NCBI RefSeq assembly: GCF_036173065.1 | Contig: NZ_CP108041.1 | Span: forward strand, 1,302,001-1,366,000 | DNA from: Rhodococcus sp. NBC_00297 | Lineage (GTDB): Bacteria > Actinomycetota > Actinomycetes > Mycobacteriales > Mycobacteriaceae | Length of the DNA stretch: 64,000 bases | Direction of reading: 5' to 3' | Shown here: positions 3,976-20,314 of the stretch, in pieces | How the letters are laid out: every line of letters begins with the position of its first letter | Numbering within the stretch: the stretch's first letter is position 1 | Position numbers and translations under genes: made by a program | Notes under the pieces: generated by a model | Databases searched by the model: none | What the model was told of the DNA's origin: nothing | What the model saw: only the letters and a program-made list of their open reading frames with translations

Positions 3976-4003
3976 CCGGTCGAGGTTCTGCCACCATGGG
4001 GGT

Positions 4004-5065
4004 ATGGCCACGAGCACCACTGCCCCACTCACCGGATATCTCAGCGACAACGCTGCGGGCACCGCCCCGGAGATACTCGCGGCCATGGCGGAGGCATCGA
4101 CCGGGCTCGCAGCCCCGTACGGCAACGATCCGACGTCCGCTCGTCTCACGACGCTGATGGCCGACGTCTTCGAGCGTCCCGTCGACGTGTTCGTCGTCGG
4201 AACCGGTTCGGCGGCCAACGGACTGGCGCTGGCCGCGTGTACACCGCCGTGGGGCAGCATCCTCACTCATCCCGACGGCCACATCACCAACGACGAGGCC
4301 GGCGCTCCGGAGTTCTTCACCGACGGCGCCAAGATCGTCCTCGTGGACGGCCCCCGTTCGACGATGGATCCCACCGCACTGCGCGCCGCGGTCGTGCGAC
4401 GACGCGGCGACGTCCACAGTGTCCAGCCGTCGGTGGTGAGCCTCACGCAGGTCACCGAGACGGGCAGCGTCCACACCCTCGACGAGTTGCGTGAGGTGTC
4501 GACCATCGCGCACGATGCCGGACTCCGCGTGCACATGGACGGCGCCCGGTTCGCCAACGCGCTCGTGGCCCTCGAGTGCACGCCGGCCGAGATGACCTGG
4601 CGAGCAGGCGTGGACATCCTGTCCTTCGGCGCGACGAAGAACGGCACGATGACCGCCGAGGCCATCGTGTCGTTCGATCCCTCGTTGTCCACCGAACTGG
4701 CATTCCGACACAAGCGCGGTGGCCAGCTGACGTCCAAGATGCGGTTCCAGAGCGCGCAACTGGTCGCGTACCTGGAGAACGACCTCTGGATGCGTCATGC
4801 GCGGAACGCCAACGCGATGGCCGCGCGGCTCCGAGACGGGCTCCGACAGATCGGGGGCATCGAGGTCGTGGGCGACGCGTCGGCGAACATGTCCTACTTC
4901 CGCTTCCCCGCTGCTCTGACACAGGCACTGCACGACCGCGGATTCACGTTCTACGACGACCGGTGGGAGCCGGGGGTCGTGCGTCTCGTGACGTCGTTCG
5001 CGCACACTGGGCGCGACGTGGACGCGTTCGTCGATGCCGTGCGGGCACTCGCCATTATTGACTGA
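4004..5065 (+). CDS. L-threonine aldolase-type PLP enzyme
   Basis: PLP-dependent fold-type I lyase of 353 aa, likely low-specificity threonine aldolase (threonine to glycine plus acetaldehyde). N-terminal LSDNAAGTAPEILAAM, the region HMDGARFANAL and the Schiff-base lysine in SFGATKNGTM match the beta-eliminating lyase/threonine aldolase family, and length is normal. The stop lies inside a palindrome that probably serves the downstream TetR gene. A related beta-hydroxy-amino-acid substrate is possible. Confidence 0.82.
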   Translation: MATSTTAPLTGYLSDNAAGTAPEILAAMAEASTGLAAPYGNDPTSARLTTLMADVFERPVDVFVVGTGSAANGLALAACTPPWGSILTHPDGHITNDEAGAPEFFTDGAKIVLVDGPRSTMDPTALRAAVVRRRGDVHSVQPSVVSLTQVTETGSVHTLDELREVSTIAHDAGLRVHMDGARFANALVALECTPAEMTWRAGVDILSFGATKNGTMTAEAIVSFDPSLSTELAFRHKRGGQLTSKMRFQSAQLVAYLENDLWMRHARNANAMAARLRDGLRQIGGIEVVGDASANMSYFRFPAALTQALHDRGFTFYDDRWEPGVVRLVTSFAHTGRDVDAFVDAVRALAIID

Positions 5066-5071
5066 TCAGTC
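5060..5071. promoter_or_regulatory. palindrome GACTGATCAGTC, candidate TetR operator
   Basis: A perfect 12-bp palindrome 12 bp upstream of the TetR start at 5084 and overlapping the stop codon of the aldolase gene. Position and symmetry fit autoregulation by the adjacent TetR protein; inferred. Confidence 0.5.
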
Positions 5072-5083
5072 TAGAATGGGTGC

Positions 5084-5437
5084 ATGCCGAGACCGCGCGA
5101 GTTCGACACGGACACTGTGCTCGCGGCCGCGGTCGACACGTTCGTCCGTCACGGTTACACCGGCGCGTCCGTCGATCAGATCCTCGACGCCGTCGGCATC
5201 CGACGGGCGAGCCTCTACAACGCGTTCGGAAGCAAGCGCGGACTGTTCCTCACCGCACTGCGCTCGACGCACTCCACGATGCCTCTGCTTCTCGTCGCTC
5301 TCATGGATCTGGCCCCCTCCGATCCCTCGGTGAGGCAGGAGATTCACGAGAAGTTGGTTGCCGAGAACATCGACGCACAGGCACTGGGCGACGCGGTACT
5401 CACGCGCGCCTGCATCGAGAGAAAGGGCACAGCATGA
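5084..5437 (+). CDS. short TetR-family regulator
   Basis: Only 117 aa, against ~190-200 for a typical TetR protein. Residues 1-60 hold an intact TetR helix-turn-helix (YTGASVDQILDAVGIRRASL followed by YNAFGSKRGLF). The C-terminal ligand domain is reduced to ~55 residues ending DAVLTRACIERKGTA. It is either a naturally short form or one that has lost its distal domain. The stop overlaps the next start (ATGA at 5434-5437), so the two are translationally coupled. Confidence 0.75.
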   Translation: MPRPREFDTDTVLAAAVDTFVRHGYTGASVDQILDAVGIRRASLYNAFGSKRGLFLTALRSTHSTMPLLLVALMDLAPSDPSVRQEIHEKLVAENIDAQALGDAVLTRACIERKGTA

Positions 5438-5787
5438 ACACCGTGACCATCGTCGACGGCCGACTGGTCGTCGAACCCCGCGGCCTCGACAAGCTCTGGA
5501 GCTTCACGCGCCGACTCGACATCCCGCTGTCCGAGGTGAAGGGCGCCACCGTCGACACCGGTGTACGGCGTGAGCCCAGGGGCATCAGGGCTCCGGGCCT
5601 CTCGATACCGGGGAAATACGCCGGCACCTTCCACCGTGACGGCGAGAAGGTGTTCTGGAACGTCGGGGACCCGGTGCGCAACATCGTGATCGAGCTCGAC
5701 GGCACCGGACGGTTCGATCGCCTCGTCCTGACGGTGGACGATCCGACCGGGACGGAGAACGCGGTCAACTCCGCACTCGCGACCTAG
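5434..5787 (+). CDS. small conserved protein coupled to TetR
   Basis: 117-aa soluble protein with alternating beta-type segments (VTIVDGRLVVEPRGLDKLWS, GKYAGTFHRDGEKVFWNVGD, RFDRLVLTVDD), reminiscent of small bacterial PH-like/beta-sandwich proteins seen in Actinobacteria. No catalytic motif, signal peptide or membrane segment. Its start overlaps the TetR stop by four bases, so it is the probable target of that regulator. Function unknown. Confidence 0.65.
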   Translation: MNTVTIVDGRLVVEPRGLDKLWSFTRRLDIPLSEVKGATVDTGVRREPRGIRAPGLSIPGKYAGTFHRDGEKVFWNVGDPVRNIVIELDGTGRFDRLVLTVDDPTGTENAVNSALAT

Positions 5788-5790
5788 TTC

Positions 5791-6777
5791 TCACAGGTCC
5801 CCCCATGCCTCCGGATTGACTGCGTGGGGCGGCATCGTGCCGGCGGCCATCGCGACGGCGTTCTCCGCGCACAGACGCGCCATCTCGCTCCGCACCGACA
5901 CCGTCGCGCTCCCGACATGCGGCAACAGCACGGTGTTGGCCAGCTCCGACAGGCCGGGTGCAATGGCTGGTTCGTCCTCGTAGACGTCGAGCCCCGCACC
6001 GGCGATCACGCCGTCGCGCAACGCCTCCACCAGAGCAGACTCGTCGACCACCGGCCCGCGCGCGGTGTTCACCAGAATCGCGGAGGTCTTCATCGCGCCG
6101 AGAACCCGAGCATCGACGAGGTGGTACGTCGCCTCGGTCAGCGGAACGTGCAGGGACAGGAAGTCGCTCGTCGCCACCAACTCGTCCCACGAGACGTGCT
6201 CGACACGACCGCCGAACTCGCCGAGCTCCGCATCGTCGACGGGCCTGTCGGACGGAGGCCGGGGGCAGAACCGCACCGTCATACCGAATCCGAGAGCGCG
6301 CCGCGCCGTCGCGCGAGCGATGCGCCCGAATCCTGCCAGTCCCAGCACCCGCCCGGACACGTCCGTGCCGAGCATCAGGTCCGGTGCCCATCCGGTGAAC
6401 TCACCGGCGCGCACCATCCGGTCCGCCTCGAGCGCCCGACGCGCTGTGGCCAGCATCAGCAGGAGAGCGATGTCCGCCGTGGAGTCCGTCAGGACGCCCG
6501 GAGTGTTCCCGACGACGATGCCTCGGACGGTGGCGGCGCCGACGTCGATGTTGTCGACACCCACCGCGTAGTTGGAGATCCCACGCAGGCGCGCACTGGC
6601 GAGTGACACTCTGTCGAACCGGTCTCGGAGCTGGGCCACCACCACGTCGTAGTCGCCGGAGGCGCATCGCTCCACCAGCGCGACGTGATCGAGCGCGATC
6701 ACGTCGACGTCGGCGGCGCGGCGCAGAATCTCCATACCCGGTTCCGGAATCGGCAGGGTGACCAGGATCCGCGTCAT
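5791..6777 (-). CDS. D-2-hydroxyacid dehydrogenase (NAD(P)-dependent)
   Basis: Oxidoreductase of 328 aa interconverting a 2-keto acid and D-2-hydroxy acid (glyoxylate reductase/phosphoglycerate-dehydrogenase-like). The Rossmann signature is LGLAGFGRIARATARRA (~res 147-163). Catalytic residues are visible: Arg in NTARGPVVDESAL, Glu in DVYEDEP and His in VLLPHVGSAT. The start overlaps the stop of the upstream CoA-transferase gene by four bases, so the two are probably cotranscribed with the MarR gene and act on the same carboxylate. Confidence 0.86.
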   Translation of the reverse strand: MTRILVTLPIPEPGMEILRRAADVDVIALDHVALVERCASGDYDVVVAQLRDRFDRVSLASARLRGISNYAVGVDNIDVGAATVRGIVVGNTPGVLTDSTADIALLLMLATARRALEADRMVRAGEFTGWAPDLMLGTDVSGRVLGLAGFGRIARATARRALGFGMTVRFCPRPPSDRPVDDAELGEFGGRVEHVSWDELVATSDFLSLHVPLTEATYHLVDARVLGAMKTSAILVNTARGPVVDESALVEALRDGVIAGAGLDVYEDEPAIAPGLSELANTVLLPHVGSATVSVRSEMARLCAENAVAMAAGTMPPHAVNPEAWGDL

Positions 6778-7970
6778 GCGTCGTTCTCGCTCTCGGTGCG
6801 TCCCAACCGTTCCCGCAGCACTTCGGCGGTGTGCTCGCCGAGGTCCGGTCCGAGCGATCGGATGGGAACGGACGCATCGCCGATGACGGGCACCACACCG
6901 ACGAAACCCACGTCCACCGGAGTCTCACCACCGACGTCCACGGGGAACGTCTGAATCATGTTGCGCGCTCGGTACTGTGGATCCCGCACGATGTCGGCGG
7001 CCGTGTAGATGGGCCCCGACGGCACACCGGCCCGATCGAGCACCGCCAACGCCTCGTCGCGGGAGTGCAGCATGGTCCAGGCGGAGATGGCCGCGTCCAG
7101 TTCGTCCCGACGTCGCCAGCGGCCGGCGTTGGCGGACAGCTCGGGATCCGCGCCGAGATCCGGCCGACCGATCGTCTCCATGTAGCGCTGGAAGATGGCG
7201 TCGCCGTTGCCGGCGATGATGATCGAGTGACCGTCGTTGCACGGGTACGCATTCGAGGGCGCGATGCCTTCCATCCGCCCACCGGTGCGCTCGCGTTCCA
7301 CTCCGTAGGCGAGGTAGTCGGGTACCAGCGATTCCATCATCGACAGAATCGACTCGTTGAGCGCGACGTCGATCGAGCGTTGCTCGAGCGAGAGCTCGCT
7401 CGACGCGGTCTGGCGTCGGAACAGAGCCATGACACAACCGAAGGCGGCGTAGAGGCCGGCGATGGAGTCACCGATCGACACTCCGACGCGAACCGGTGGT
7501 CGGTCGGGGTCGCCGACGAGGTTGCGAAATCCCCCGTAGGCCTCGGCGACGGCGGCGAAGCCCGGACGCTCGGCCATCGGACCGGTCTGCCCGAAAGCGG
7601 AGATGCGGGTGATGATGAGATCAGGGTTCCTCTCGCTCAACCGCTCCGGCGAGAGTCCCCATTTCTCGAGAGTGCCGGGCCGAAAGTTCTCGAGCACGAT
7701 GTCGCACTGCGCGGCGAGATCCAGCACGTCCTGCCGCCCCTGCTCGGTGCGCAGATCGAGCACGATCGACTTCTTGTTGCGGTTGATCGTCCGGTACAAC
7801 ATCGACGTGGTACCGGAATAGAGACGCCAGTTCCGGATCTCGTCGCCGGTGCCGGGTCGCTCGACCTTGATCACCTCCGCGCCGAAGTCCGCGAGCATGC
7901 GTCCCGCGGTCGGCGCGGCGATGTAGTTGCCGAGCTCCAGCACTCGAATGCCGGTCAGCGGTAGCGACAT
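6774..7970 (-). CDS. class III (CaiB/BaiF) acyl-CoA transferase
   Basis: 398 aa, family III CoA-transferase that moves CoA between carboxylic acids. Typical signatures are the N-terminal GIRVLELGNYIAAPTAGRML, DFGAEVIKVERPGTGDE, and the catalytic-Asp region VGVSIGDSIAGLYAAFG. Length is normal for formyl-CoA/succinyl-CoA transferases. It lies between a MarR regulator (13 bp upstream) and a hydroxyacid dehydrogenase (overlapping), an arrangement that suggests activation and oxidation of a hydroxy-acid. Confidence 0.88.
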   Translation of the reverse strand: MSLPLTGIRVLELGNYIAAPTAGRMLADFGAEVIKVERPGTGDEIRNWRLYSGTTSMLYRTINRNKKSIVLDLRTEQGRQDVLDLAAQCDIVLENFRPGTLEKWGLSPERLSERNPDLIITRISAFGQTGPMAERPGFAAVAEAYGGFRNLVGDPDRPPVRVGVSIGDSIAGLYAAFGCVMALFRRQTASSELSLEQRSIDVALNESILSMMESLVPDYLAYGVERERTGGRMEGIAPSNAYPCNDGHSIIIAGNGDAIFQRYMETIGRPDLGADPELSANAGRWRRRDELDAAISAWTMLHSRDEALAVLDRAGVPSGPIYTAADIVRDPQYRARNMIQTFPVDVGGETPVDVGFVGVVPVIGDASVPIRSLGPDLGEHTAEVLRERLGRTESENDA

Positions 7971-7983
7971 GGGGTCCTCTCCG

Positions 7984-8505
7984 TCAGTCCCGGTCGTCCG
8001 GGCGCACGTCCTGCTCGGGATACCGGTCCATCAGCATCCTGTGGACCGCCGGGTTCGCACCCTCGAGCACCCGGCCCGCGAGTCGCCCGAGCTCGAGTGC
8101 GTCCTCACGACCGAGGCGGTCGACGACCAGTTCTCGCACCTGCGCGACGTGACCGGGAGCCGCGCGACGAACGATCTCCATGCCCTCGTCGGTCAACGTC
8201 ACCGCGGACTGCCCACCGGGGCCTCCGCGTGGCCCCCGTTCGACCCACCCCCGCGACTCCATACGCGTGAGTGCGTGGGAGACCCGAGAGAGTGATCCTG
8301 CGGCGAAGGCAGCGATCTCACTCGTCGGCGAACTCCGACCAGGCGACTCGGACAGACCGGCCAGAAGCATGTATTCGAAGTGGTTGACCCCCGCGTCGTT
8401 CTTCAACTGCGAGTTCAGTACTGCGGGGAGCGCCTCGAGGAGGCCTGCGACCGCGAGCCACGCGCGTACCTCGTCGGGTCGCAGCCACTCGACGTCGTCG
8501 TTCAC
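7984..8505 (-). CDS. MarR-family transcriptional regulator
   Basis: 173 aa winged-helix regulator. The recognition region is TSEIAAFAAGSLSRVSHALT with the wing RGWVERGPRGGPGGQSAVTL. It is the first gene of the probable operon with the CoA-transferase and hydroxyacid dehydrogenase genes. A MarR-type operator (TTGAAGGTTCAA) sits 40 bp upstream of its start, in the intergenic region shared with the divergent monooxygenase remnant, so it likely controls both directions. Confidence 0.87.
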   Translation of the reverse strand: MNDDVEWLRPDEVRAWLAVAGLLEALPAVLNSQLKNDAGVNHFEYMLLAGLSESPGRSSPTSEIAAFAAGSLSRVSHALTRMESRGWVERGPRGGPGGQSAVTLTDEGMEIVRRAAPGHVAQVRELVVDRLGREDALELGRLAGRVLEGANPAVHRMLMDRYPEQDVRPDDRD

Positions 8506-8524
8506 GCACCCAGCCTAGGTGTCG

Positions 8525-8556
8525 TGAACCTTCGCTACCCTCACTTGAAGGTTCAA
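8525..8556. promoter_or_regulatory. MarR-type operator region
   Basis: TTGAAGGTTCAA at 8545-8556 is an inverted repeat of the classic MarR form. The same half-site also pairs with TGAACCTT at 8525-8532 (second arm AAGGTTCA at 8548-8555). It lies between the divergent MarR gene and the monooxygenase remnant. Confidence 0.55.
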
Positions 8557-8609
8557 CTCGACGACACTACAGTGTGTTGACACTTCACTACATCGGCAGA
8601 ACGGCACCA

Positions 8610-8785
8610 ATGCAGATCGGGATCGGCAACTTCGTGTCGGCCGTCGTCGAGTACGACACCGGCCACCGCGTCACCGCTCGCGAGCGGGTGGCGCATCTCT
8701 TGGACGGACCATGCTGCGGGGCATCGAGTTGCTCGGCACCGAGGTCGCGCCGCTGGTGAAGGCACGCGTGAGCGATCGCCTCCGA
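8610..8785 (+). pseudogene. remnant of LLM-class (luciferase-like) flavin monooxygenase
   Basis: The start ATG at 8610 opens MQIGIGNFVSAVVEYDTGHR, the canonical N-terminus of actinobacterial luciferase-like FMN/F420 monooxygenases (~330-350 aa). After about 34 residues the frame shifts, and the neighbouring frame reads GIELLGTEVAPLVKARVSD (8714-8770), which is a typical C-terminus of the same family. The ~300 residues between are gone, so this is an internal deletion with frameshift. It faces away from the MarR gene with the operator between them, suggesting it was once the MarR target. Confidence 0.7.
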
Positions 8786-8788
8786 GCA

Positions 8789-9793
8789 TCACGACCGGAG
8801 CGCCTCCGCCAGCATGGGCACCACGGTGTCGAGTGCGTACTGCAGCGAGAGCGCCGAGTTGGTGGAGTAGGACTTCGCCACCGCCGGGTCGTCGAACACG
8901 ATCGCATGCCCCTGCGCCACGGCCGGGATACTGCGGAACAGCGGGTTCTGCTCGATGTCCTGCGCAGTCTTGCCGATCGGAAACATGACGACGAGATCCG
9001 CGTCGAGCAGACCCAGCTGCTCGTCCGCGATCGGTACGGAGAACCGCACCGGGGTCATCGATGCGATGGTCGGGTTCTGCCGGAACCCGAGCCGCATCAG
9101 GAACTGCACCCGCTCGCTGTCCTCTATGTAGGCGCCGTAGCCGGTTCCGCTGAGGGCGCCCACCGTCACGGTCCTCTCTGCGAACTCCGGATGGTCCGCA
9201 GCGGCCGTGCGGAAGCCGTCGTCCAGCCCTGCGATCAGCTCGGCGCCCTTCTCGGGCACACCGAGCGCCGCGGCAACCATGGTGACCTGATCCTCGTAGG
9301 ACGTCGTGTAGTTCTCCGCACCCTCCGGGATGCCGACGGTCGGGGCGATGGCCGCCAGGCGGTCGTGCCGGCCGACGTCGCCCGAGCTCTTGGTGTCGAG
9401 GATCAGATCCGGCTCGAGTGCCGCCACGGCTTCGTAGGACGGTTCCAGGGTTCCGATGATCTCGGGTGGTGTGTCGTAGAGACCCTCCGCCCACGGACCG
9501 ACGCCCTCTCCGCCGAAGTCGAGCCAGTCGCTGGCACCGACCGGCTGGAACCCGAGGGCCAATGCCGTCTCCGCGTCCCCCCACCCCAGCGCCACGACGC
9601 GCGTCGGCGCCGATTCGAGGTCGACGGCGCCGAACGCGGTGTCGACCGTCGCGGGATAGACGCCGCCGGCCGCTGTCTGCGCCGCGTCGCGGCCGTCCTC
9701 GGTGGCGGCCGACGAGCACGACACGGTGAGGGCCACCGTCGCGACGAGTACAGGGATCAGTCGCCTCACGGGCGCACACACGGTGAGAAACAT
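8789..9793 (-). CDS. iron-siderophore ABC transporter substrate-binding lipoprotein
   Basis: 334 aa FepB/FecB-type periplasmic binding protein that captures ferric siderophore outside the cell. The hydrophobic N-terminus ends VALTVSCSS, a plausible though imperfect lipobox. The mature part has RVVALGWGDAETALALG and EPDLILD, typical of the fold. An IdeR/DtxR-type box (9793-9811) abuts the annotated ATG, so transcription may begin inside this gene and the true start may be the GTG at 9769 (MRRLIPVLVATVAL). No permease or ATPase gene is adjacent; these must be elsewhere. Confidence 0.85.
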   Translation of the reverse strand: MFLTVCAPVRRLIPVLVATVALTVSCSSAATEDGRDAAQTAAGGVYPATVDTAFGAVDLESAPTRVVALGWGDAETALALGFQPVGASDWLDFGGEGVGPWAEGLYDTPPEIIGTLEPSYEAVAALEPDLILDTKSSGDVGRHDRLAAIAPTVGIPEGAENYTTSYEDQVTMVAAALGVPEKGAELIAGLDDGFRTAAADHPEFAERTVTVGALSGTGYGAYIEDSERVQFLMRLGFRQNPTIASMTPVRFSVPIADEQLGLLDADLVVMFPIGKTAQDIEQNPLFRSIPAVAQGHAIVFDDPAVAKSYSTNSALSLQYALDTVVPMLAEALRS

Positions 9794-9811
9794 TGCGTTA
9801 GCCTAACCTAA
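9793..9811 (-). promoter_or_regulatory. IdeR/DtxR iron box
   Basis: Read on the minus strand the site is TTAGGTTAGGCTAACGCAA, 17 of 19 positions matching the IdeR consensus TTAGGTTAGSCTAACCTAA. It predicts iron-dependent repression of the siderophore-binding protein gene. It touches the first base of the ATG at 9793, which bears on the start choice. Confidence 0.75.
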
Positions 9812-9945
9812 CCTGAGGCCCACGGGCGCACTGCGATCCAGCTCACAATCAGCATCACCGCAGGTGAGACCCGTTCTCGACTGGTCGCCGAAAAATATCT
9901 CGGCAGATCGGTAATGAAATTCGGGATGGGCGCGATTCAGTAGAC

Positions 9946-10239
9946 ATGAGCATTGCAACCGACTTCGCCACCGCAGACGTCACGCGCAACCACGGTGCCG
10001 ACACCGCCCACGACATCGACTCCATGCACGACGAGATCGAGCGTCTCGACGCCCAGATCCTGGCCGCAGTGGCACGACGCACCGAGCTCACTCGCACTGT
10101 CGGCATGATGGAGCCCCGCTCGGCCGCATCGTCCGCACGCGAGATGTCGGTGCTCCAGCACTTCGGTGATCTCGGCCGCGAGGGCCGCACCCTCGGCATG
10201 CTCCTCCTGCGCATGGGCCGCGGACAGATCGCTCGCTAG
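9946..10239 (+). CDS. chorismate mutase, AroQ type (Rv0948c-like)
   Basis: 97 aa all-helical chorismate mutase converting chorismate to prephenate for Phe/Tyr synthesis. IDSMHDEIERLDAQILAAV, RRTELTRTVGMM, SAREMSVLQHFGDLGREG and the C-terminal LLLRMGRGQ match the intracellular M. tuberculosis enzyme, which is weak alone and is activated by binding DAHP synthase through its C-terminal tail. Cytoplasmic; no signal peptide. Stands alone, with an SMR efflux gene 24 bp downstream. Confidence 0.88.
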   Translation: MSIATDFATADVTRNHGADTAHDIDSMHDEIERLDAQILAAVARRTELTRTVGMMEPRSAASSAREMSVLQHFGDLGREGRTLGMLLLRMGRGQIAR

Positions 10240-10263
10240 TCCCGCCCGCGGTAGAACTACCGC

Positions 10264-10596
10264 ATGGTGTGGTTCGTTCTGGCGGCGGCCGTGGTGGCCG
10301 AAGTGTCCGCCACCCTGTCGCTCAAAGGTTCCGAGACCCGTCCCGTCCTCTACGTCGTGGTGATCATCGGTTATCTGCTGGCCTTCGTCGGACTCGCGTC
10401 CGTACTGCGCCGCGGTATGGCCCTCGGTGTCGCCTACGGTATCTGGGGAGCAAGCGGTGTCGCTCTCACCGCCCTTCTCGCGTCAGCGCTCTTCGGTGAA
10501 CCGCTGACCATCGTGATGGGTCTCGGAATCGGACTGGTCATCGTCGGTGTACTCCTCGTCGAGACCGGGTCCCACCCCGCAGAGCGGGAACCGTGA
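10264..10596 (+). CDS. SMR-family small multidrug efflux protein, subunit 1
   Basis: 110 aa, four predicted membrane helices. The N-terminal WFVLAAAVVAEVSATLSLKG carries the essential membrane Glu (AEVSAT), and the middle has ALGVAYGIWGASGVALTALL, both typical of QacE/EmrE-type proton-coupled drug exporters. Its stop overlaps the start of a second SMR gene (GTGATG at 10593-10598), indicating a heterodimeric pair of the EbrAB/YkkCD kind. Confidence 0.88.
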   Translation: MVWFVLAAAVVAEVSATLSLKGSETRPVLYVVVIIGYLLAFVGLASVLRRGMALGVAYGIWGASGVALTALLASALFGEPLTIVMGLGIGLVIVGVLLVETGSHPAEREP

Positions 10597-10922
10597 TGCA
10601 GTACCTCTTCCTCCTCGGCGCCATCCTCCTCGAGGTGTCGGCCACGCTGTCGCTCCGCGTGGCGGCCACCGGACGCCCCGCGTTCTACGGGGTCGTCGCT
10701 CTCGGCTATCTCCTCGCGTTCGTCGCCCTGCTCGGTGCGCTCCGTTCGGGTCTGGCCCTGGGAGTGGCCTACGGCATCTGGGCCGCGTGCGGAGTCGCCC
10801 TCACCGCCGTGGCCTCCCGGTACCTCTTTCGAGAACCCCTGACCCGCCGCATGCTCGGCGGGATCGCATGCATCGTCGTCGGCGTCCTGCTCATCGAACT
10901 CGGTGCCGCGGCCGCTCGATGA
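10593..10922 (+). CDS. SMR-family small multidrug efflux protein, subunit 2
   Basis: 109 aa, four membrane helices, with the membrane Glu in LEVSATLSLRVA and the GVAYGIWAACGVALTAV signature. It is a close paralogue of the preceding gene and overlaps it. Initiation may be GTG at 10593 or ATG at 10596. The pair probably forms a heteromeric exporter for cationic compounds. It ends 13 bp before the convergent transketolase-like gene. Confidence 0.87.
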   Translation: MMQYLFLLGAILLEVSATLSLRVAATGRPAFYGVVALGYLLAFVALLGALRSGLALGVAYGIWAACGVALTAVASRYLFREPLTRRMLGGIACIVVGVLLIELGAAAAR

Positions 10923-10935
10923 ACCTGCCGAGCAG

Positions 10936-13290
10936 TCAGTGACCGGTGACGTCGAGTGCGGCCCGGACGATCGAGTCGGTGTCGATCTGATGGTGGCGGT
11001 ACACCTCGTCGAGTGCGCCGACCTGACCGAACTCACTCACCCCGAGAGACGTGGACGGCACCCGATTCACCGTCGCCAGGAACGCGAGCGTGTGGGGATG
11101 ACCGTCGAGGACCGTCACCATCGGCGTCGCCCGCTCTGCCGGGAGCAGATGATCGAGAATCCACGACTCCGCCTCGAGATGCCCCTGCCGTGCCTGCACC
11201 GCCCGATACAGCTCCCCCGGACTCGTGACGCACAGGACGTCGGCAGCGAGCCCGATCTGTTCGAGCCGCTCCGCCGCGTCGAGGGCCTCGGTGACCATCG
11301 CGCCCATCGCCGCGATGGTCACCACCGCACCGTCCCGCCGCACCAGCGGGTATCCCCCGGCGACCACCTGCCGCCGTCGGCGCTCCCGCGCCGCCGGATC
11401 CGCCGGAACGTTCGCCAGCGACTGATCGACCGGCCTGGTCGACAGGCGCAGATACGCCGACGTGCCGCCCGGGCGCCCCAACCGTCCGATCGCCGCCAGC
11501 AGCGTCCACTCGACGTCGATCGCGAACGCCGGTTCCCAGCTCACGCACCCGGGCTGCTCCAGACCGATCGACGGGGTCTTGATCGACTGGTGCGCACCAC
11601 CTTCCGCCGCCAGGGTCACTCCCGAGGGGGTGCCGACGAGGATGGACTGTCCGCCTGCGTAGATGCCGTACGACCACGGCTCGAGCGCGCGCTCGACGAA
11701 CGGGTCGTACATGACTCCGATCGGGAACAGCGGCTCTCCCCACCGGCTCCACGTCGCACCGAGCTCGCCCATCAGTCCGACGAGGTTGGTCTCGGCGATG
11801 CCCAGTTCCATGTGTTGCCCCGTGGGGCTCTCGCGCCAGTGCATGATCGTCTCGGCGTCGTCACCGAACCAGTCGTGGCGTTCCGAGGACGACCAGACGC
11901 CGATCTTGTTCACCCAGCCGCCGAGGTTGGTGGTGGAGCTGACGTCGGGACTGACGGTGACGACCCGCCGCGCGGCGTCCGGAGCCGCTCTGGTGAGGTC
12001 GAGCAGGACGCGACCGAGCGCGGCCTGTGTCGTCGCCGTTCCCTTGGGCGTGCGCCCGATGTCGGTGGGCACCGAGGGAGGCTCGGCCGTGTGTATCGGT
12101 TCCCGGCGCAGCCGGTCCGCGGTGTCCGCGCACACCCGCCCGGCCGGACTGTCGTCCGAGAATCGTGCCCAGGGCGCGTCGGGGTCGGTGCCCAGCGCGC
12201 CCGCGAGTTCGGCGTACTCCTCGACCGTCAGCAACGACGAGTGATTTTGCGGATGACCCTGCGTCGGCAACCCGAAGCCCTTGACGGTGTACGCGATGAT
12301 CACGGTGGGACGGGTGTCGTCGATACGGGCGAACGCGGCGCGCAGTGCGGCGAGGTCGTGTCCGCCCAGGTTGCGGACGGCCTCCGTCAGAGCGGCATCG
12401 TCCAGATCGGCGACGAGGGCACGAATCCGTTCGGCACCGGGCCCGGCGCCGGGCAGTCGGGTGCGCAGTTCGTCCGCCGTGCAGCGCAGGAGGCGTTGGT
12501 ACTCCGGGTTGGGCATGTCGACGATGCGTTCGCGCAGGGCCTCGCCGCCGGGACGGGCGAACAATGCGTCGAGAAGGGTGCCGAACGAGACCGTGACGAC
12601 CTGCCAGCCGGCGGCGTCGAACATCTTCTCCAGCCGCCGCGCAGCGAAGTTCGGCACCACTCGATCCAGCGATTGGCGGTTCAGGTCGACGATCCACACG
12701 ATCTCGCCGAGGTCGGCGATTCCCGGGTCGATCACCGCTTCCCACACCGCGCCCTCGTCCAGTTCGGCGTCGCCGACGAGCGAGTACTGCCGCCCCCGGA
12801 ATCCGGTCGCTGTCCGGGCGTCGTCGTGCGCGTCACCGAAGGCGGCGTCGACGTAGCGGCGCGACATCGCGCCCCAGATCGGTGCGGTCGCTCCGATTCC
12901 CACGGACCCGGTGGAGTAGTCGACGGTGTCGGGGTCCTTGGCGCGCGACGGGTAGGACTGCAGCCCGCCGTAGGACCGCAGCGTCGTCAGGTACTTCTCG
13001 TCCAACTCACCGAGGAGGTAGTTGATCGCGTGCAGCACCGGAGACGCGTGCGGCTTGACCGACACCCGGTCCCCGGGCTGCAACTGTTCGAACCACAGGG
13101 AGGTCATGATCGACACCATCGACGCGCACGAGGCTTGGTGGCCTCCGACTTTGAGTCCGCTGGGGTTGGGCCGAATTCGATTGGCGTGGTGAATCATCGA
13201 GGTCGACAGCCACAACACACGCTGTGCGATCTCCTCCAGGGTCTCCACCGTCTGTGGCGCTCGATCATCGACATGCTCGTTGCTGGTCAT
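10936..13290 (-). CDS. transketolase-like / AceE-type 2-oxoacid dehydrogenase E1
   Basis: 784 aa thiamine-diphosphate enzyme. N-terminal half: NPSGLKVGGHQASCASMVSI, and the ThDP/Mg motif GDAELDEGAVWEA followed by VDLNRQSLD, as in homodimeric pyruvate dehydrogenase E1 (AceE). C-terminal half: pyrimidine-binding and transketolase C-terminal domains (MELGIAETNLVGLMGELGAT, VTIAAMGAMVTEALDAA). Slightly shorter than AceE (~890 aa). No E2 or E3 neighbour, so it may act on a different 2-oxo acid or as a transketolase. Start supported by GAGGGGGAA upstream. Confidence 0.8.
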   Translation of the reverse strand: MTSNEHVDDRAPQTVETLEEIAQRVLWLSTSMIHHANRIRPNPSGLKVGGHQASCASMVSIMTSLWFEQLQPGDRVSVKPHASPVLHAINYLLGELDEKYLTTLRSYGGLQSYPSRAKDPDTVDYSTGSVGIGATAPIWGAMSRRYVDAAFGDAHDDARTATGFRGRQYSLVGDAELDEGAVWEAVIDPGIADLGEIVWIVDLNRQSLDRVVPNFAARRLEKMFDAAGWQVVTVSFGTLLDALFARPGGEALRERIVDMPNPEYQRLLRCTADELRTRLPGAGPGAERIRALVADLDDAALTEAVRNLGGHDLAALRAAFARIDDTRPTVIIAYTVKGFGLPTQGHPQNHSSLLTVEEYAELAGALGTDPDAPWARFSDDSPAGRVCADTADRLRREPIHTAEPPSVPTDIGRTPKGTATTQAALGRVLLDLTRAAPDAARRVVTVSPDVSSTTNLGGWVNKIGVWSSSERHDWFGDDAETIMHWRESPTGQHMELGIAETNLVGLMGELGATWSRWGEPLFPIGVMYDPFVERALEPWSYGIYAGGQSILVGTPSGVTLAAEGGAHQSIKTPSIGLEQPGCVSWEPAFAIDVEWTLLAAIGRLGRPGGTSAYLRLSTRPVDQSLANVPADPAARERRRRQVVAGGYPLVRRDGAVVTIAAMGAMVTEALDAAERLEQIGLAADVLCVTSPGELYRAVQARQGHLEAESWILDHLLPAERATPMVTVLDGHPHTLAFLATVNRVPSTSLGVSEFGQVGALDEVYRHHQIDTDSIVRAALDVTGH

Positions 13291-13604
13291 GGCGCTTCCC
13301 CCTCAGGACGTCATCTCCGGCTCGATGCTTCGCGGAGATCCCCAGGTGACCACGGTCTTGCCGACTGCGCAAGATCCGGCTCCGCGACCGAGCATTCTGC
13401 GCACAGCACCGCATGTCGTCGTGGGTGTTCCGAGCGTGTCGACCACTCGGGTGACCGACGACACCCGGTGAGTGGGCGCCCGTGTTCGAGGACACCGGCC
13501 GGATGTGGTGTGCGGAGCCGACGGACGGGTACACGATGAACGGCGAGACACACCCTCAGCTGCGGTCCACGAGCCGGTTACACGAACGCAGCGAAGGACG
13601 CCCC
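13291..13604. other. 314-bp divergent intergenic region
   Basis: Lies between the transketolase-like gene and the GAF/ANTAR gene and must hold both promoters. I see no coding signature. The ribosome site of the minus-strand gene is at its left edge. An imperfect inverted repeat (CACTCGGGTG and CACCCGGTGAGTG, 13444-13474) sits in the middle. In-frame upstream starts for the ANTAR gene (GTG 13482, ATG 13536) fall here but lack a convincing ribosome site. Confidence 0.5.
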
Positions 13605-14327
13605 ATGGCATCGAACTCGGCCCGCGAGCCCCATCCACCAGACGAACGCGTCATGGGCGCCCTGCGGTCCGGACGCACTGCGGAGACATGGCTGGCCGCG
13701 TGCGTGCAGTGGTGCCGGGCGGACGGAGCCGCCGTGGTGGCGGAATCTGCGGCCGATGCCGACGTCCGGCTCGTCACGTACGCGACGGACGACCTGGCGG
13801 AGCGGCTGGCCGACCTCCAGTACCTGCTCGGCTGCGGACCGCACACCGAGTCGATGGCGGGAGCGGGACACAGCCGACTCGATGTCGAGGACCCTGACCA
13901 CGGCGTCCGCTGGACCACTCTCGTCGACGAATTGGCGACCCTCGGAGTCGTCGAGGTCGCGACGTTCCCCATCGGTGCACCCGCCACCCCCCTGGGAACG
14001 CTCCAGATGTACTGGCGTGGTCGACGCCGCAGCAGCACGCACTCCGACGCCGCCATCGCAGCGCTCGTGGAACGTCGCCCGGAGTTGCTGGCGCCGCGAG
14101 TTCCCCTGTGCGACGACCTGGACGGAGACTCTGTCCTCACGGCCGTCGACGGCGGGCCCGACCACGGCTTCGACCTGTCGACCGTGCACCTGGCGATCGG
14201 CGTGGTGGTCGCTCGGCACCACCTCGGCGTCCAGGCAGCGTCGGCACTGCTGCGAGCACAGGCCTACAGCGCTGGGACCACGGTCACCGAGCAGGCTCGA
14301 CGGGTGCTGGACGACCAACGAGGCTGA
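13605..14327 (+). CDS. GAF and ANTAR domain protein (RNA-binding antiterminator type)
   Basis: 240 aa. The N-terminal ~150 residues resemble a degenerate GAF sensor (LQYLLGCGPHTESMAG, PIGAPATPLGTLQMYWRG). The C-terminal ~55 residues look like an ANTAR domain (TVHLAIGVVVARHHLGVQAA with SALLRAQAYSAG), which binds dual-hairpin RNA to stop termination. ATG 13605 is preferred because GAAGGA lies 8 bases upstream. RNA targets are unknown. Confidence 0.75.
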   Translation: MASNSAREPHPPDERVMGALRSGRTAETWLAACVQWCRADGAAVVAESAADADVRLVTYATDDLAERLADLQYLLGCGPHTESMAGAGHSRLDVEDPDHGVRWTTLVDELATLGVVEVATFPIGAPATPLGTLQMYWRGRRRSSTHSDAAIAALVERRPELLAPRVPLCDDLDGDSVLTAVDGGPDHGFDLSTVHLAIGVVVARHHLGVQAASALLRAQAYSAGTTVTEQARRVLDDQRG

Positions 14328-14363
14328 CGACCGTCGTCGCCGACACCCACTAGGCTCCCCTTC

Positions 14364-16751
14364 ATGCTGTCGAGCGACGTCCCCACCGCAGTCGGACTCA
14401 CCACAGCGGAAGCGGAGACCCTCGCATCGCAGGGTCGGTCCAACGACGTGCCGGCCCGCTCCTCGAGGTCGGTCGCAGACATCCTGCGCGGCAACATCTT
14501 CACGCGCATCAACGCGATTCTGGCGGTACTTCTCGTCATCGTGCTGTCGACCGGATCGATCATCGACGCGATGTTCGGTCTGCTCATCGTCGCCAACAGC
14601 GGGATCGGCATCATCCAGGAACTGCGCGCGAAGCGCACCCTCGACGCGCTCGCCATCGTGGGCCAGAGTCGGCCCATCGTGCGACGAGACGGCCGTGCAC
14701 GGGACCTCGCTCCCCACGAGGTGGTGCTCGGCGACGTCGTGGAACTCGGTCCGGGCGATCAGATCATCGTCGACGGCGACGTGATCGAGGCGGACTCGCT
14801 CGACGTCGACGAATCACTGCTGACGGGTGAGTCCGACTCGATGACCAAGACCCCGGGCGACTCCGTGTTCTCCGGGTCGTTCGTCGTCGCCGGCCGCGGA
14901 GCCTACCGCGTCACCAAGGTGGGGAGGGAAGCGTACGCGGCCCAGTTGGCCGAGGAGGCAGGCAAGTTCACGCTCATCGACTCCGAACTCCGGTCCGGTA
15001 TCGACCGCATCCTCCGCCACATCACCCGGGTGATGGTCCCGGCCGGCATCGTCATCGTCGTCAACCAGCTCGTCGTCACGGGCCAGCCGCTCGGCCCCGC
15101 GCTCAACGGCATGGTGGCGGCGCTGGTCCCGATGGTGCCGGAAGGACTGGTCCTGCTCACGTCACTGGCCTTCGCCGTCGGCGTGGTCCGCCTCGGACGT
15201 CGACAGTGCCTCGTGCAGGAGCTTCCGGCGGTCGAGGGGCTGGCCCGTATCGACGTGGTGTGCGCCGACAAGACCGGAACGCTGACCGAGAACGCGATGG
15301 TCATGTCGGACCTCCTCGTGCTGTCGGCCGAGTCCGACGAGGACGTCCGGCGCGACCTGTCCGCCGTCGTCGCCGACGACGATCGACCGAACGCCAGCAT
15401 GATCGCCGTCGCCGACGCGCTTCCGACCGCGCCTGCCCGGACGGCGTCCGCGCGGGCTCCGTTCTCGTCGGAGAAGAAGTGGAGCGGAGTCTCCTTCCCC
15501 GACGCGGGCAACTTCCTGATCGGTGCTCCGGACGTGCTGCTGGATCCGGCATCGGAGGCCTCCGCACGCGCCACCGAGCTGGGCGCGGCCGGAAAGAGGG
15601 TGCTGCTCTTCGCCACCAGCGACCTCCCGATGGATCACGCCGACGCGCCGGGTGTCGTGACGCCCCGAGCCCTCGTCGTGCTCGAGCAGAAGATCCGGGC
15701 GGACGCCGGCGAAACACTGAACTACTTCGCGGATCAGGCCGTCCAGGTCAAGATCATCTCCGGCGACAACGCGGTGTCCGTGGGCGCGGTGGCCGGGTCG
15801 CTCGATGCTCTGCCGTCGGGCGATGCGGTCGACGCTCGCAGTCTCCCGTCGAACACGGACGATCTCGCGGACACCATGGAGCGTCATGCCGTGTTCGGAC
15901 GGGTACGCCCGGAACAGAAGCGGGACATGGTCACCGCCTTGCAGAGCCGTGGTCACACGGTGGCCATGACGGGTGACGGCGTCAACGACGTTCTCGCACT
16001 GAAGAAGGCCGACATCGGTGTCGCCATGGGCGCGGGAAGTCCCGCGGCGCGGTCCGTGGCGCAGATCGTGTTGCTGGACAACGCCTTCTCGACGCTGCCC
16101 CACGTGGTGGCCGAGGGTCGACGAGTCATCGGCAACATCGAACGGGTCTCCACGCTGTTCCTCACCAAGACGGTCTACTCGGTGGTGCTCGCGGTCCTCG
16201 TCGGGCTGTCCGGTCTGCTGTCCCTGGTCGTGAACGTCGACCCGCTGCCCTACCCGTTTCTTCCCCGCCACGTCACCATCGCGGCGTGGTTCACCATCGG
16301 CATTCCCGCGTTCCTGCTGTCGCTGGCGCCGAACAACGAACGGGCCCGCTCCGGCTTCGTCCCTCGGGTGCTGCGCAAGGCGGTCCCCGCCGGACTGGTG
16401 GTGGGTGTCGCCACGTTCGCGACCTACCTCGCCACCTACGACGGACCCGATGCCTCGCGGGCGGACCGGATCCAGTCGAGCACCTCGGCGCTCATCACGC
16501 TGATCGTCGTCGCGATGTGGGTCCTCGGGACGGTGGCCCGGCCCATGCAGTGGTGGAAGGTGACTCTGCTGACCGTGTCCGTGGCGGCCTACGCGGTCAT
16601 CTTCACCGTGCCGCCGCTCGCCCGCTTCTTCGAGCTCGATGCGGGCAACGTGTCCTACACCGTGCTCGCCTTCGTCTCCGCGGCAGTGGGTATCGCGGTC
16701 CTGGAGGCGGTACGCCCCGCCATGCGGCGCCGCGCGCACCGCACGGCGTAG
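14364..16751 (+). CDS. ctpE: cation-transporting P-type ATPase, CtpE-like
   Basis: 795 aa membrane pump. Actuator-domain [11 protein letters not shown], phosphorylation site [15 protein letters not shown], hinge [19 protein letters not shown], and a membrane segment with [20 protein letters not shown]. Length, the short N-terminus without a heavy-metal domain, and the MVPEGL segment match mycobacterial CtpE, reported as a Ca2+-uptake ATPase. It stands alone; an imperfect GC hairpin follows the stop. The ion is inferred from family resemblance only. Confidence 0.85.
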
Positions 16752-16752
16752 C

Positions 16753-16775
16753 GCGCACAGCACCGCGTGCTGCGC
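16753..16775 (+). terminator. GC hairpin after ctpE
   Basis: GCGCACAGCAC-CGC-GTGCTGCGC, a 9-bp stem with a bulge, starting 2 bases after the ctpE stop. No T-run follows, so termination is only suggested. Confidence 0.35.
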
Positions 16776-16779
16776 ATGA

Positions 16780-17505
16780 TTGGCGACGACGGGAATCGGG
16801 CATTTCACAGGTGTGCATTTCACGCCGGCCCGGGTCGAGCGCATCGTCGCAGTGGTGCCCGCCCACAACGAGGACGCGTCGCTGTCTGCGTGCCTCGATG
16901 CCCTGCGCACCGCTCGCACGCTGTCGCCGGTCCCCGTCCGACTGGTGGTGGTGCTGGACGCCTGCAGTGACCGCACCGCGGAGGTGGTGGGTGGGGGCGT
17001 CCGGTGCGTCACGACGGACGTCGCGAACGTGGGAGCTGCACGGGCCCTGGGGTTCCGGTCCGAGACGTCGAGCGCCGGATCGTCCACCTGGTACGTCAAC
17101 ACCGACGCCGATTCGCTGGTCGACCCCGACCACTTCCGATCGATCGTGGCGTGCGCTGCGCAGGCACACGTCGTCCCCGGACCGGTGCGCGTCGACGAGG
17201 GCCTGCGTGATCCCGTCGTGCTCCGGCGATTCCGGCGCGACTACGCGGACCGTGAACGACGCGGACTCCTGCAGGTCCACGGAGCCAACCTCGCGGTGCG
17301 CGCCGACGCCTACCGTGCGGTCGGCGGATTCCGTGCGCTCGCCGTCCACGAGGACGTCGATCTGGTCGCGCGACTCGGACGCCGGGGGTACCGCATACGC
17401 CGCACCGGCGCTCCGTGCGTGACCACGTCGGCCCGCACCAGTACGCGCACCACAGGTGGTTTCGCCACGTTCCTCGACGAGATGGCGACTCCCGTCACCG
17501 CCTGA
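16780..17505 (+). CDS. family 2 glycosyltransferase
   Basis: GT-A fold transferase of ~230-241 aa. Signatures: IVAVVPAHNEDASLSACLDA at the N-terminus, VVLDACSDRTAE, the DxD motif in NTDADSLVDPDH, and HEDVDLVARLGRRGYRIRR near the end. No membrane anchor. The start is uncertain: TTG 16780 or GTG 16813 (VHFTPARVERIV). The gene abuts, stop to stop, the convergent methyltransferase operon; acyl-CoA dehydrogenase, PIG-L deacetylase, methyltransferase and GT2 genes recur together in other actinobacteria (from general knowledge), so it probably belongs to that pathway. Confidence 0.82.
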   Translation: MATTGIGHFTGVHFTPARVERIVAVVPAHNEDASLSACLDALRTARTLSPVPVRLVVVLDACSDRTAEVVGGGVRCVTTDVANVGAARALGFRSETSSAGSSTWYVNTDADSLVDPDHFRSIVACAAQAHVVPGPVRVDEGLRDPVVLRRFRRDYADRERRGLLQVHGANLAVRADAYRAVGGFRALAVHEDVDLVARLGRRGYRIRRTGAPCVTTSARTSTRTTGGFATFLDEMATPVTA

Positions 17506-18603
17506 TCAGTGTGCGCCGGTACCCCGCGTGAAGACGTCGACGAGAACGTCGTCGTCGCGGTACTCCGCCCGGAGGAGCAGGTGCGGTGACGCGCGGAACG
17601 CGGTGTGCACCTCGGCCGCAGTGCTCGGGTACTCCGGAACGTCGTGGCGCCAGTGCGCGACGCACACGGTTCCGCCGGGCTCTGCCGCATCGACCGCCTT
17701 CGACACCAGAGCGTCGAGCTCCGTCGGGTGGACGTAGTAACACATCTCGCTCAGCACGACGAGATCGAACTGCTCGTCCGGCCACCCGTCGTGCAGCGAC
17801 TCTCGGCGGAACTCCACGTTCGGAATCCCACGCTCCCGCGCGCGACGCAACGGTGCCTCCGCGATGTCCGTGGAGAGCAGGCGATCGGCTCGGCCCGCGA
17901 TGAGTTCGGACAGAACTCCGACGGAACACCCCGGCTCGAAGGCCGACCGGTACCGCTCGTTCGGAAGCATTGCCATCGTGAGGGCGTACTTGCGTCGCTC
18001 GTACCACCGGCTCTCGAACCCCCACGGGTCCGGATCGGCCTCGTACATGCGCTCGAAATAACTCGCCGGGACACCTCCGGCCTGCCCGCCCGATTCCGAC
18101 CGGCCTCCGGCCTGCCCGCCCGATTCCGACCGGCCTCCGGCCTGCCCGCCCGATTCCGACCGGCCTCCGGCCTGCCCGCCCGATTCCGACCGGCCTCCGG
18201 CCTGCCCGCCCGATTCCGACCGGCCTCCGGCCTGCCCGCCCGATCCCGACCGGCCTCCGGCCTGCCCGCCCGATCCCGACCGGCCTCCGGCCTGCCCGCC
18301 CGATCCCGACCGGCCTCCGGCCTGCCCGCCCGATCCCGACCGGCCTCCGGCCTGCCCGCCCGATCCCGACCGGCCTCCGGCCTGCCCGCCCGATCCCGAC
18401 CGGCCTCCGGCCTGCCCGCCCGATCCCGACCGGCCTCCGGCCTGCCCGCCCGATCCCGACCGGCCTCCGGCCTGCCCGCCCGATCCCGACCGGCCTCCGG
18501 CCTGCCCGCCCGATCCCGACCGGCCTCCGGCCTGCCCGCCCGATCCCGACCGGCCTCCGGCCTGCCCGCCCGATCCCGACCGGCCTCCGGCCTGCCCGCT
18601 CAC
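17506..18603 (-). CDS. NodS-like SAM methyltransferase with N-terminal decapeptide repeat
   Basis: 365 aa. Residues ~178-365 form a class I methyltransferase: SYFERMYEADPDPWGFESRW, the SAM loop AFEPGCSVGVLSELIAG, and VVLSEMCYYVHP, like NodS-type N-methyltransferases. Residues 3-176 are 17 copies of a Gly-rich decapeptide GGQAGGRSGS (12 copies, start-proximal) or GGQAGGRSES (5 copies), encoded by the tandem array at 18074-18600 and absent from the family. The GTG start overlaps the PIG-L stop (GTGA), so the array begins right after the initiation codon and the native N-terminus appears displaced. Predicted disordered. Confidence 0.85.
   Translation of the reverse strand: MSGQAGGRSGSGGQAGGRSGSGGQAGGRSGSGGQAGGRSGSGGQAGGRSGSGGQAGGRSGSGGQAGGRSGSGGQAGGRSGSGGQAGGRSGSGGQAGGRSGSGGQAGGRSGSGGQAGGRSGSGGQAGGRSESGGQAGGRSESGGQAGGRSESGGQAGGRSESGGQAGGRSESGGQAGGVPASYFERMYEADPDPWGFESRWYERRKYALTMAMLPNERYRSAFEPGCSVGVLSELIAGRADRLLSTDIAEAPLRRARERGIPNVEFRRESLHDGWPDEQFDLVVLSEMCYYVHPTELDALVSKAVDAAEPGGTVCVAHWRHDVPEYPSTAAEVHTAFRASPHLLLRAEYRDDDVLVDVFTRGTGAH
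18074..18600. repeat. 30-bp tandem repeat (minisatellite), 17 full copies plus a 17-bp partial
   Basis: The plus-strand unit is CCTCCGGCCTGCCCGCCCGA followed by TTCCGACCGG or TCCCGACCGG. The first five copies (18074-18223) carry TTCC; the next twelve carry TCCC; otherwise units are identical by eye. The unit is a multiple of three with no stop in any frame, so copy changes keep the methyltransferase frame. No unique spacers, so this is not CRISPR. Confidence 0.97.
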
Positions 18604-19352
18604 ACGAACACCGTCTCGTGAGAACGCAGGAGCCGCTCAAGAACCCACGGCGGGAGGATCTCGTCCTCGTTCCCGTCCCGAGTCGTCTGGCTGACGAATC
18701 TGCTCACCGCTACCTCCTTGCGCGCGATCGCGTCCGCGTCGAGAGTGATCGTGCGGGCCGACTCCCAGTCCACGGCCTCGTCCCCCGGTTCTGCCCAGTG
18801 CCACATCCACACCGGGTACTCGACGAGCGTGCACCCGTTCCGGCTCGCCGCCGCGGCCGACGCGCGCCCGACCGCTTCGTGATCGGGGTGGCCGTCGCCG
18901 CGCAGCGTCGTCGCGCACCACACCGTCGTACCGCGCCCCACGGTGTCGAGCACGTCGACGAGAGCGTCGACGAGGGCGCGCTCGTGCTCGGCCACCTGTC
19001 CGTCGGGCATGCTCAGCCGACGGATGTCGACGATACCGAGATCCACCAGCGCCGACGCACTCTCGGCTCTGCGCACCGCTTCCAGGTCGGCGCGCGACCG
19101 CGCGGGCGTGGGGGTGTGAGACGCGCCCCCGTCAGTGACGGCGACTATCGTCACCGGAACACCGGACGCGGCCAGCATCGATGCCCAGCCGCCCAGACCG
19201 AGGACCTCGTCATCGGGGTGCGGAGCGACGAGGACCAGATGCGCCAGCCCGTCGTGGACAAGGTCGGGGTACGTCGGACCGTTCTCGCGCCACACGGACT
19301 CCGGCGTTCCACGCTGTGCCACCGGGCGCTCCGCGAACCTGCCCACACTCAC
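18600..19352 (-). CDS. PIG-L (LmbE-like) family deacetylase
   Basis: 250 aa zinc-dependent N-deacetylase of the MshB/LmbE family, acting on an N-acetyl sugar or similar. Zinc motif VAPHPDDEVLGLGGW (~res 42-56) and the distal His motif GHPDHEAVG are intact. The GTG start overlaps the acyl-CoA dehydrogenase stop, and its own stop overlaps the methyltransferase start, giving a tightly coupled three-gene operon. Not the mycothiol MshB by context; substrate unknown. Confidence 0.88.
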   Translation of the reverse strand: MSVGRFAERPVAQRGTPESVWRENGPTYPDLVHDGLAHLVLVAPHPDDEVLGLGGWASMLAASGVPVTIVAVTDGGASHTPTPARSRADLEAVRRAESASALVDLGIVDIRRLSMPDGQVAEHERALVDALVDVLDTVGRGTTVWCATTLRGDGHPDHEAVGRASAAAASRNGCTLVEYPVWMWHWAEPGDEAVDWESARTITLDADAIARKEVAVSRFVSQTTRDGNEDEILPPWVLERLLRSHETVFV

Positions 19353-20314
19353 GATGCGGAACCCGACGCCGCGACCGCCCGGCCCAGGTTCTCCAGATCG
19401 ACCTCGGCGTGGCTCTGGCGAAGATACGTCGTCAGGTCTGCCACCCGGCGGGAGTGCTCCGCGTCCAGACCGAGGGGTGCCGCACCCAGCGCGCGGCCGA
19501 CCCGGTCGAGAACTTCGGTGCAGGCCCGCTCCACGATGGCGCGAACCCGCATGGCGCGGACTCTCGCCTCGTCCAGAGCCAGTGGGTCTCGGTCCACCTC
19601 GTCGGCAGCGACGTCGAAGGTGTTGACACAGGCCGTCAGTGCCGCGTCCACTGCTCCGAGGTGCGCGAGCGCATGCGGTCCGGCCCGGTCCGCAGCGGCC
19701 CGGCGGTAGAGCGGGTCGGCGACGGCGAGTGCCACCCCGAACCAGCAGGCGGCCACCCCGATCGCACCGTGCCAGAATCCGGCACGCGCGGTGTAGTCAC
19801 CCGGTTGCCCCACCGCGACCGCGGACGTTCCCGCGAGAGACACTGCGCCGGAATCGCTCTCGCGCATTCCCGTCGCGTGCCACGTGTTCGGCTCAGGGGT
19901 CACGGTGCCGCTGTCCAGCGCCACGGCGAACAAGGCGGAGTCCTCCCCCGCCCGTGCGGTCACCAGCGCGTGCGAGCAACTGTGGGCTCCCGAGCACCAC
20001 ATCTTCCGGCCGGTCAGCGACCAGGAACCGTGCTCGTCGGAGACCGCGTTGACGGGCGGCGGCGTCTCTGCGGCCCACACTCCCCACATCTGCTCGGACG
20101 AGGTCGCGGGACCACCCAGCTCCGCGCAGATGGCGACGGCGTCGAAGTGGGCTTCGAGCAACCGGCCGACCACCGCGTCGTCGCGGCACCACGCGGTCAG
20201 CAGATCCCAGCGTCGCCTGGTCGCACCGGACCCCGGTAGCGGGATCTCACCAGCGGATGCGATGCGGGACCGTACGGCCGCGGCGACACCGGGGTCGAGA
20301 TCGTCCGTACTCAC
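19349..20314 (-). CDS. acyl-CoA dehydrogenase-like flavoprotein
   Basis: 321 aa, shorter than the ~380 of typical acyl-CoA dehydrogenases. SSEQMWGVWAAE, SLTGRKMWCSGAHSCSHALV (the flavin/substrate-contacting beta region) and a helical C-terminal domain are recognisable, but no catalytic Glu context stands out. GTG at 20314 is preferred because AGGAG lies 8 bases upstream; longer upstream starts lack a ribosome site. First gene of the operon with PIG-L and methyltransferase. It may be a divergent or non-CoA member of the family. Confidence 0.78.
   Translation of the reverse strand: MSTDDLDPGVAAAVRSRIASAGEIPLPGSGATRRRWDLLTAWCRDDAVVGRLLEAHFDAVAICAELGGPATSSEQMWGVWAAETPPPVNAVSDEHGSWSLTGRKMWCSGAHSCSHALVTARAGEDSALFAVALDSGTVTPEPNTWHATGMRESDSGAVSLAGTSAVAVGQPGDYTARAGFWHGAIGVAACWFGVALAVADPLYRRAAADRAGPHALAHLGAVDAALTACVNTFDVAADEVDRDPLALDEARVRAMRVRAIVERACTEVLDRVGRALGAAPLGLDAEHSRRVADLTTYLRQSHAEVDLENLGRAVAASGSAS

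Follow-up and report, generated by a model that had tools for sequence, protein, structure and literature searches.

A 17-unit in-frame tandem array at a PIG-L/methyltransferase junction is one member of a dispersed, lineage-specific short-repeat family in Rhodococcus

We wanted to know why an open reading frame for a methyltransferase in Rhodococcus sp. NBC_00297 begins with a long tandem array, and whether this repeat belongs to the gene or to the genome. The window, that is the whole stretch of DNA that was analysed, comprises 64,000 nucleotides of contig NZ_CP108041.1 (forward-strand positions 1,302,001 to 1,366,000). The features of the locus, in window positions, are as follows.

18600..19352, minus strand: upstream gene, PIG-L family deacetylase-like (Pfam PIG-L, 90.2 bits)
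18600..18603, minus strand: GTGA overlap of the PIG-L stop codon (TGA) and the methyltransferase start codon (GTG) (sequence)
17506..18603, minus strand: open reading frame of a NodS-like SAM-dependent methyltransferase, 365 aa from a GTG start; the array forms the N-terminal part (ORF list, Pfam)
18074..18599, minus strand: tandem array made up of 17 full cores of 23 bp, spaced by 7 bp, and a truncated core (Tandem Repeats Finder, unit census, core scan)
18074..18088, minus strand: truncated core of 15 bp at the methyltransferase end of the array (sequence)
17506..18072, minus strand: methyltransferase part from residue 178, predicted to be folded from about residue 180 (Pfam, AlphaFold2, sequence)

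Tandem Repeats Finder detected the array at 18074-18599 with a period of 30, 17.5 copies, 99% matches and a score of 1017; the remaining three hits in the window scored 61 or less. There were 17 cores in the window, while 0.04 were expected from shuffled sequences. A census of the units in gene order gave 12 full cores with GATCGGG followed by 5 with AATCGGG. The initial annotation had placed 17 near-identical in-frame 30-bp units plus a partial one behind the GTG, and both methods bore this out. The two segregated variants that it described on the plus strand, 5 TTCC units and then 12 TCCC units, are the same two blocks read in the opposite direction. The array codes for a tail rich in Gly, Ser and Arg.

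The methyltransferase domain exceeded the gathering score of Pfam NodS (43.8 bits, cut-off 24), in agreement with the NodS-like domain named beforehand. For the NCBIfam NodS equivalog the score was 45.7 bits, below its cut-off of 300, therefore we call the protein NodS-like and not NodS. We also confirmed that the GTG start lies at the PIG-L stop, which occupies 18600-18602 within the overlap; the GTGA overlap may act in translational coupling. The sequence behind the array starts at residue 178 (VPASYFERM). From the end of the array up to the ATG in ERM (SYFERM motif), there is no in-frame ATG, GTG or TTG. Translation of the complete enzyme would therefore have to run through the array. Judged from the sequence, the tail would be a translated, disordered, Gly/Ser/Arg-rich extension. 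AlphaFold2, run on a 35-sequence alignment, likewise predicted the disordered N-terminus that had been proposed (ten-residue mean pLDDT of 41-51 from residue 1 to 170, and of 87-98 from residue 181 to 360). In four relatives (P0003, P0004, P0104, P0119) PIG-L and methyltransferase domains occur in a single chain, and the junction of the domains corresponds to the GTGA overlap of the window. In P0003 they are joined by an Ala/Thr-rich linker. The junction is probably a permissive linker.

A pattern search of the window's own genome (G000) detected units like those of the window also far from it. The 23-bp core CGGG(N)AGGCCGGAGGCCGGTCGG, with up to 2 mismatches, had 152 matches in G000 and the reversed control had 1; a pattern with one extra free position gave the same counts. 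Among 37 genomes of the genus, 7 had 12 or more core matches (G016, 191; G000, 152; G061, 137; G015, 29; G002, 27; G005, 25; G034, 12), 4 had one and 26 had none. G061 is labelled as the same species as G000 and is a draft assembly. Sixteen genomes of other genera gave 7 core matches in total vs 11 for the reversed control. G003, otherwise without the family, has one exact core (L181).

Elsewhere in the genome the core is found in short tandem arrays, arranged head-to-tail. Across 49 arrays the period was 29-33 bp with few exceptions (extremes across arrays 23-36), and the spacer, usually 6-10 bp, was characteristic of each locus, with hardly any variation inside it. The core begins with CGGG and ends with TCGG; to its left only a G at -1 was common (39/49 arrays). 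The longest other array had 5 cores, compared with 17 in the window, among at least 51 G000 arrays around the core matches listed. The array of the window is therefore one member of a lineage-specific, dispersed family of short repeats in a branch of Rhodococcus. The initial annotation looked at the repeat as a minisatellite of this gene; that view falls short, as the core occurs genome-wide, between genes, behind stop codons and in unrelated genes. In open-licence PMC papers we found no earlier description of the core sequence or of a matching Rhodococcus repeat.

We analysed the placement of 142 arrays (G000, 51; G061, 48; G002, 20; G015, 13; G005, 9; G003, 1). The G000 arrays, at least 51, were taken around core positions among the matches listed, and all loci were picked by core match and not by gene context. 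After 50 likely orthologues were removed by a script on the basis of left-flank similarity, 92 unique loci were left. Genes were called with a plain codon-usage script. We observed that 15 of the 92 loci lay 0-4 nt behind a stop codon of the same strand (expected 0.18 at random and 0.68 for intergenic positions only). The mirrored arrangement, which served as a control, was slightly above chance (2/92, expected 0.15-0.61). Called genes contained 43 loci vs 84.5 expected at random, with the core on either strand, and 49 loci were outside called genes. The family is thus enriched right after stop codons of the same strand and depleted within genes.

Arrays in genes had periods that keep the reading frame. 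Where several cores were present, the period was divisible by 3 in 15/15 in-gene arrays (27, 30 or 33) and in 19/29 elsewhere (P = 0.008). There was one exception, L177 of G015, which had been removed as an orthologue; its period is 29, and the gene called around it runs on the opposite strand. Including L177, the test gave 15/16 (P = 0.035). G016, another species, gave a fresh set of 41 loci with the same tendencies: 4/41 loci behind stops (expected 0.07-0.55; mirror 2/41, expected 0.06-0.35), 20/41 in called genes vs 38.7 expected, and periods divisible by 3 in 9/9 arrays in genes and 7/14 elsewhere. For both sets pooled, the frame bias had P = 0.0001 without L177 and P = 0.0009 with it.

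The preference for sites right behind same-strand stop codons could mean that the array acts at the level of RNA or DNA, in translation coupling, mRNA stability or protein binding, and that its translation is a by-product. That the core is conserved across species while the spacers differ would fit such a cis-acting element, as would the folding of the 131-nt start of the array, which was better than that of shuffled sequences (z = -2.4). However, single cores and the 71-nt start were ordinary (z from -0.4 to -1.3), the 43 loci in genes have the core on either strand, and most of the genus lives without it. A structured RNA was rejected: a comparison of 17400-19400 with Rfam gave nothing at E values up to 1, and in folding only the 131-nt start stood out. 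We consider a cis-acting element very improbable.

The layout of the window was observed at other genes as well. L045 is a shikimate kinase (Pfam SKI, 149.6 bits), the ATG of which overlaps the upstream stop as ATGA. In-frame cores stand behind this ATG in three species, 2 in G000 (L045), 2 in G002 (L155) and 7 in G005 (L165). At L041, downstream of a gene that we take to be folD-like, three units follow ATGA at the start of a 130-aa open reading frame. RTGA junctions were thus seen at the window, L041 and L045. In L039, three units separate the two helicase domains (Pfam) of a RecQ-like protein; the proteins of G002 and G015 have short linkers without the array, at a divergence too great to fix its edges. 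As the repeat recurs in unrelated proteins, we interpret this as tolerance rather than function. In G016, L234 is another junction of the form GTGAG followed by the core, with two cores, in a called gene. A single core was also detected at L061 (1596-1618), in a long gene that encodes condensation, AMP-binding and PP-binding domains.

Further, we compared copy number between strains. The methyltransferase locus had 17 cores in G000, 3 in G061 (1 GATC and then 2 AATC) and 2 units in P0001, a protein of 215 aa that is 99% identical; one of its units has a threonine that is absent from the G000 and G061 alleles. All three alleles are in frame and 30-bp steps apart. The array is therefore a coding VNTR (minisatellite), that is an in-frame tandem repeat with strain-variable copy number (17, 3 and 2 units). 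The initial annotation had expected variable copy number and proposed a check of array length in related strains, which gave this result. Its argument that segregated variants fit expansion also gained support, as the order GATC and then AATC is kept in the 3-core allele, which is what tandem expansion predicts.

The length of 17 is an outlier (next longest 5, among at least 51 G000 arrays), and it might be suspected to be partly an artefact of assembly. Against this, G000 is assembled in 2 contigs, and the spacer variants form ordered blocks of the same polarity as in G061. We regard such an artefact as extremely unlikely. The 3-core allele comes from a draft assembly, in which collapse is possible. 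Collapse would hardly explain everything, because the differences run both ways and the P0001 allele is distinct.

We were able to compare 39 of the 51 G000 arrays with a G061 counterpart among the stretches examined (12 had none; 8 of the 48 G061 arrays had no G000 counterpart). Core number differed at 15 of the 39 loci, 7 being longer in G000 and 8 in G061. L095, an array of G061, is represented by a degenerate remnant in G000. Among the 39 loci there was no clean empty site within the species. For eight loci of G002, the G000 region to which they align has an array as well, with near-identical left flanks for L144/L049, L154/L046 and L155/L045. As these 8 loci and the 39 of G061 are shared with G000, many insertions seem to be old and copy number young. 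A strain-specific indel suspected at 1699-17474 of the window was not found, since this stretch aligns to G061 in one piece.

Two sister species, G002 and G016, have the RTGA junction and no array. The junction reads ATGAGCGGGATGTCC in G002 (methyltransferase protein 74% identical) and ATGACCGCG in G016 (59% identical). At two other loci, L162, in a gene that is presumably acyl-CoA-dehydrogenase-like, and L170, exactly 30 bp are inserted, each in comparison with two array-free relatives. At L171, L172, L179 and L180 the insert lengths against array-free relatives were other than 30 bp or indistinct. Flanking direct repeats were striking at L062, L047, L083, L040 and L051; the significance of flanking duplications was weak (P = 0.01 for the 92 loci, P = 0.18 for single-core loci).

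A low-complexity tail that is functional in this gene, with a copy number selected to tune the methyltransferase, would account for the in-frame alleles of 17, 3 and 2 units, for the predicted disorder and for the array of the window being by far the longest among at least 51 in G000. It is difficult to reconcile with 152 cores in G000, with about half of the loci (49/92) lying outside called genes, with array-free orthologues in G002 and G016, and with the same tail on unrelated proteins. This recurrence also argues against the 'tunable' N-terminus of the initial annotation. We hold tuning to be very unlikely.

We consider it likely that a dispersed, lineage-specific repeat family inserted at the PIG-L/methyltransferase junction and then expanded in frame, with a translated tail that is most likely neutral. 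A copy would have entered the RTGA junction right after the start codon, once the lineage had split from G002 and G016. With the stop and the start both located upstream of the insert and a permissive linker at the N-terminus, 3n added bases would keep the two genes usable. The 30-bp units would then have expanded by unequal recombination or slippage, to 17 here and 2-3 in others, and the resulting disordered Gly/Ser/Arg-rich extension would most likely be neutral. A stronger reading is that Rhodococcus has a mobile, very short repeat of a new class, which some enzyme inserts right behind stop codons as well as at RTGA overlaps. Core enzymes such as shikimate kinase and the methyltransferase would thereby acquire disordered N-terminal tails that can expand and that vary from strain to strain. 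This reading seems rather doubtful to us. We found no transposase or other mover for the core family, and a phage origin was rejected, as viral contigs, a set that may omit records near the window's genome, gave no exact core match.

MIRUs (mycobacterial interspersed repetitive units, MIRU-VNTR), which belong to the same bacterial order, are dispersed short tandem repeats with polymorphic copy number. We set the Rhodococcus family against them by description (unit size, polymorphism, placement). It is likewise polymorphic between strains (15/39 loci). In the passages of a 2025 review that describe them (PMC12548453), MIRUs insert at start codons with a -4 overlap and have their own ORF, coupled to the next gene. 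The Rhodococcus family may have a comparable preference for stop/start junctions (stop adjacency at 15/92 loci, RTGA junctions at the window, L041 and L045), but at the window the array shares one reading frame with the gene that follows. Units of the family are mostly 29-33 bp with a 23-bp core, in contrast to 40-100 bp for MIRUs, with 41 places of which 12 are polymorphic, as given in the relevant part of a 2009 paper (PMC2734929).

REP/BIME and Rickettsia palindromic elements (GTAG, CGTC) are, in the sections of PMC3733652 devoted to them, dispersed repeats of 20-40 bp that form clusters, some copies lying in ORFs, and in this the Rhodococcus family resembles REPs. Some REP palindromes supply stop codons, and in the same sections the authors speak against a functional constraint on copies within genes. 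The Rhodococcus core differs in having no terminal GTAG or CGTC tag and in its head-to-tail arrays. A single core forms a 4-bp GGCC stem with a 3-nt loop, while REP stems are 5-13 bp (GTAG) or 8-9 bp (CGTC) in those sections. Y1_Tnp (PF01797) was detected in 1 of the 37 genomes, G019, itself coreless, and in none of the 7 core-rich genomes. A REP/RAYT system was ruled out by this absence and by the missing tag. PARCELs, in the corresponding part of PMC2996958, are dispersed coding repeats, tandem and variable in number, and in this they resemble the Rhodococcus family; they differ in being 25-residue amphipathic motifs, and the Rhodococcus repeat also occurs between genes (49/92 loci outside called genes). 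The family works like MIRU, REP and PARCEL but departs from MIRU and REP in defining features that were tested. Most probably it is a MIRU-like repeat, either neutral or selfish.

A Rhodococcus counterpart to the mycobacterial MIRU typing loci would follow, and 15 of 39 loci already differ between two strains. Two questions become testable, namely how a 23-bp repeat spreads without an evident transposase and to what extent enzymes, shikimate kinase included, put up with N-terminal repeat tails of changing length. The locus is also a warning that the low-complexity tail of a single protein may belong to a DNA element spread over the genome and not be a protein-specific feature.

The edges of the arrays showed two further regularities. 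The first core stands directly after TGAG at the window and directly after CTAG at L040, L048, L054 and L056. The same truncated core, CGGGNAGGCCGGAG(G), ends the arrays at the window (18074-18088), L050, L053, L063 and L095, and this shared end may hint at how units get copied.
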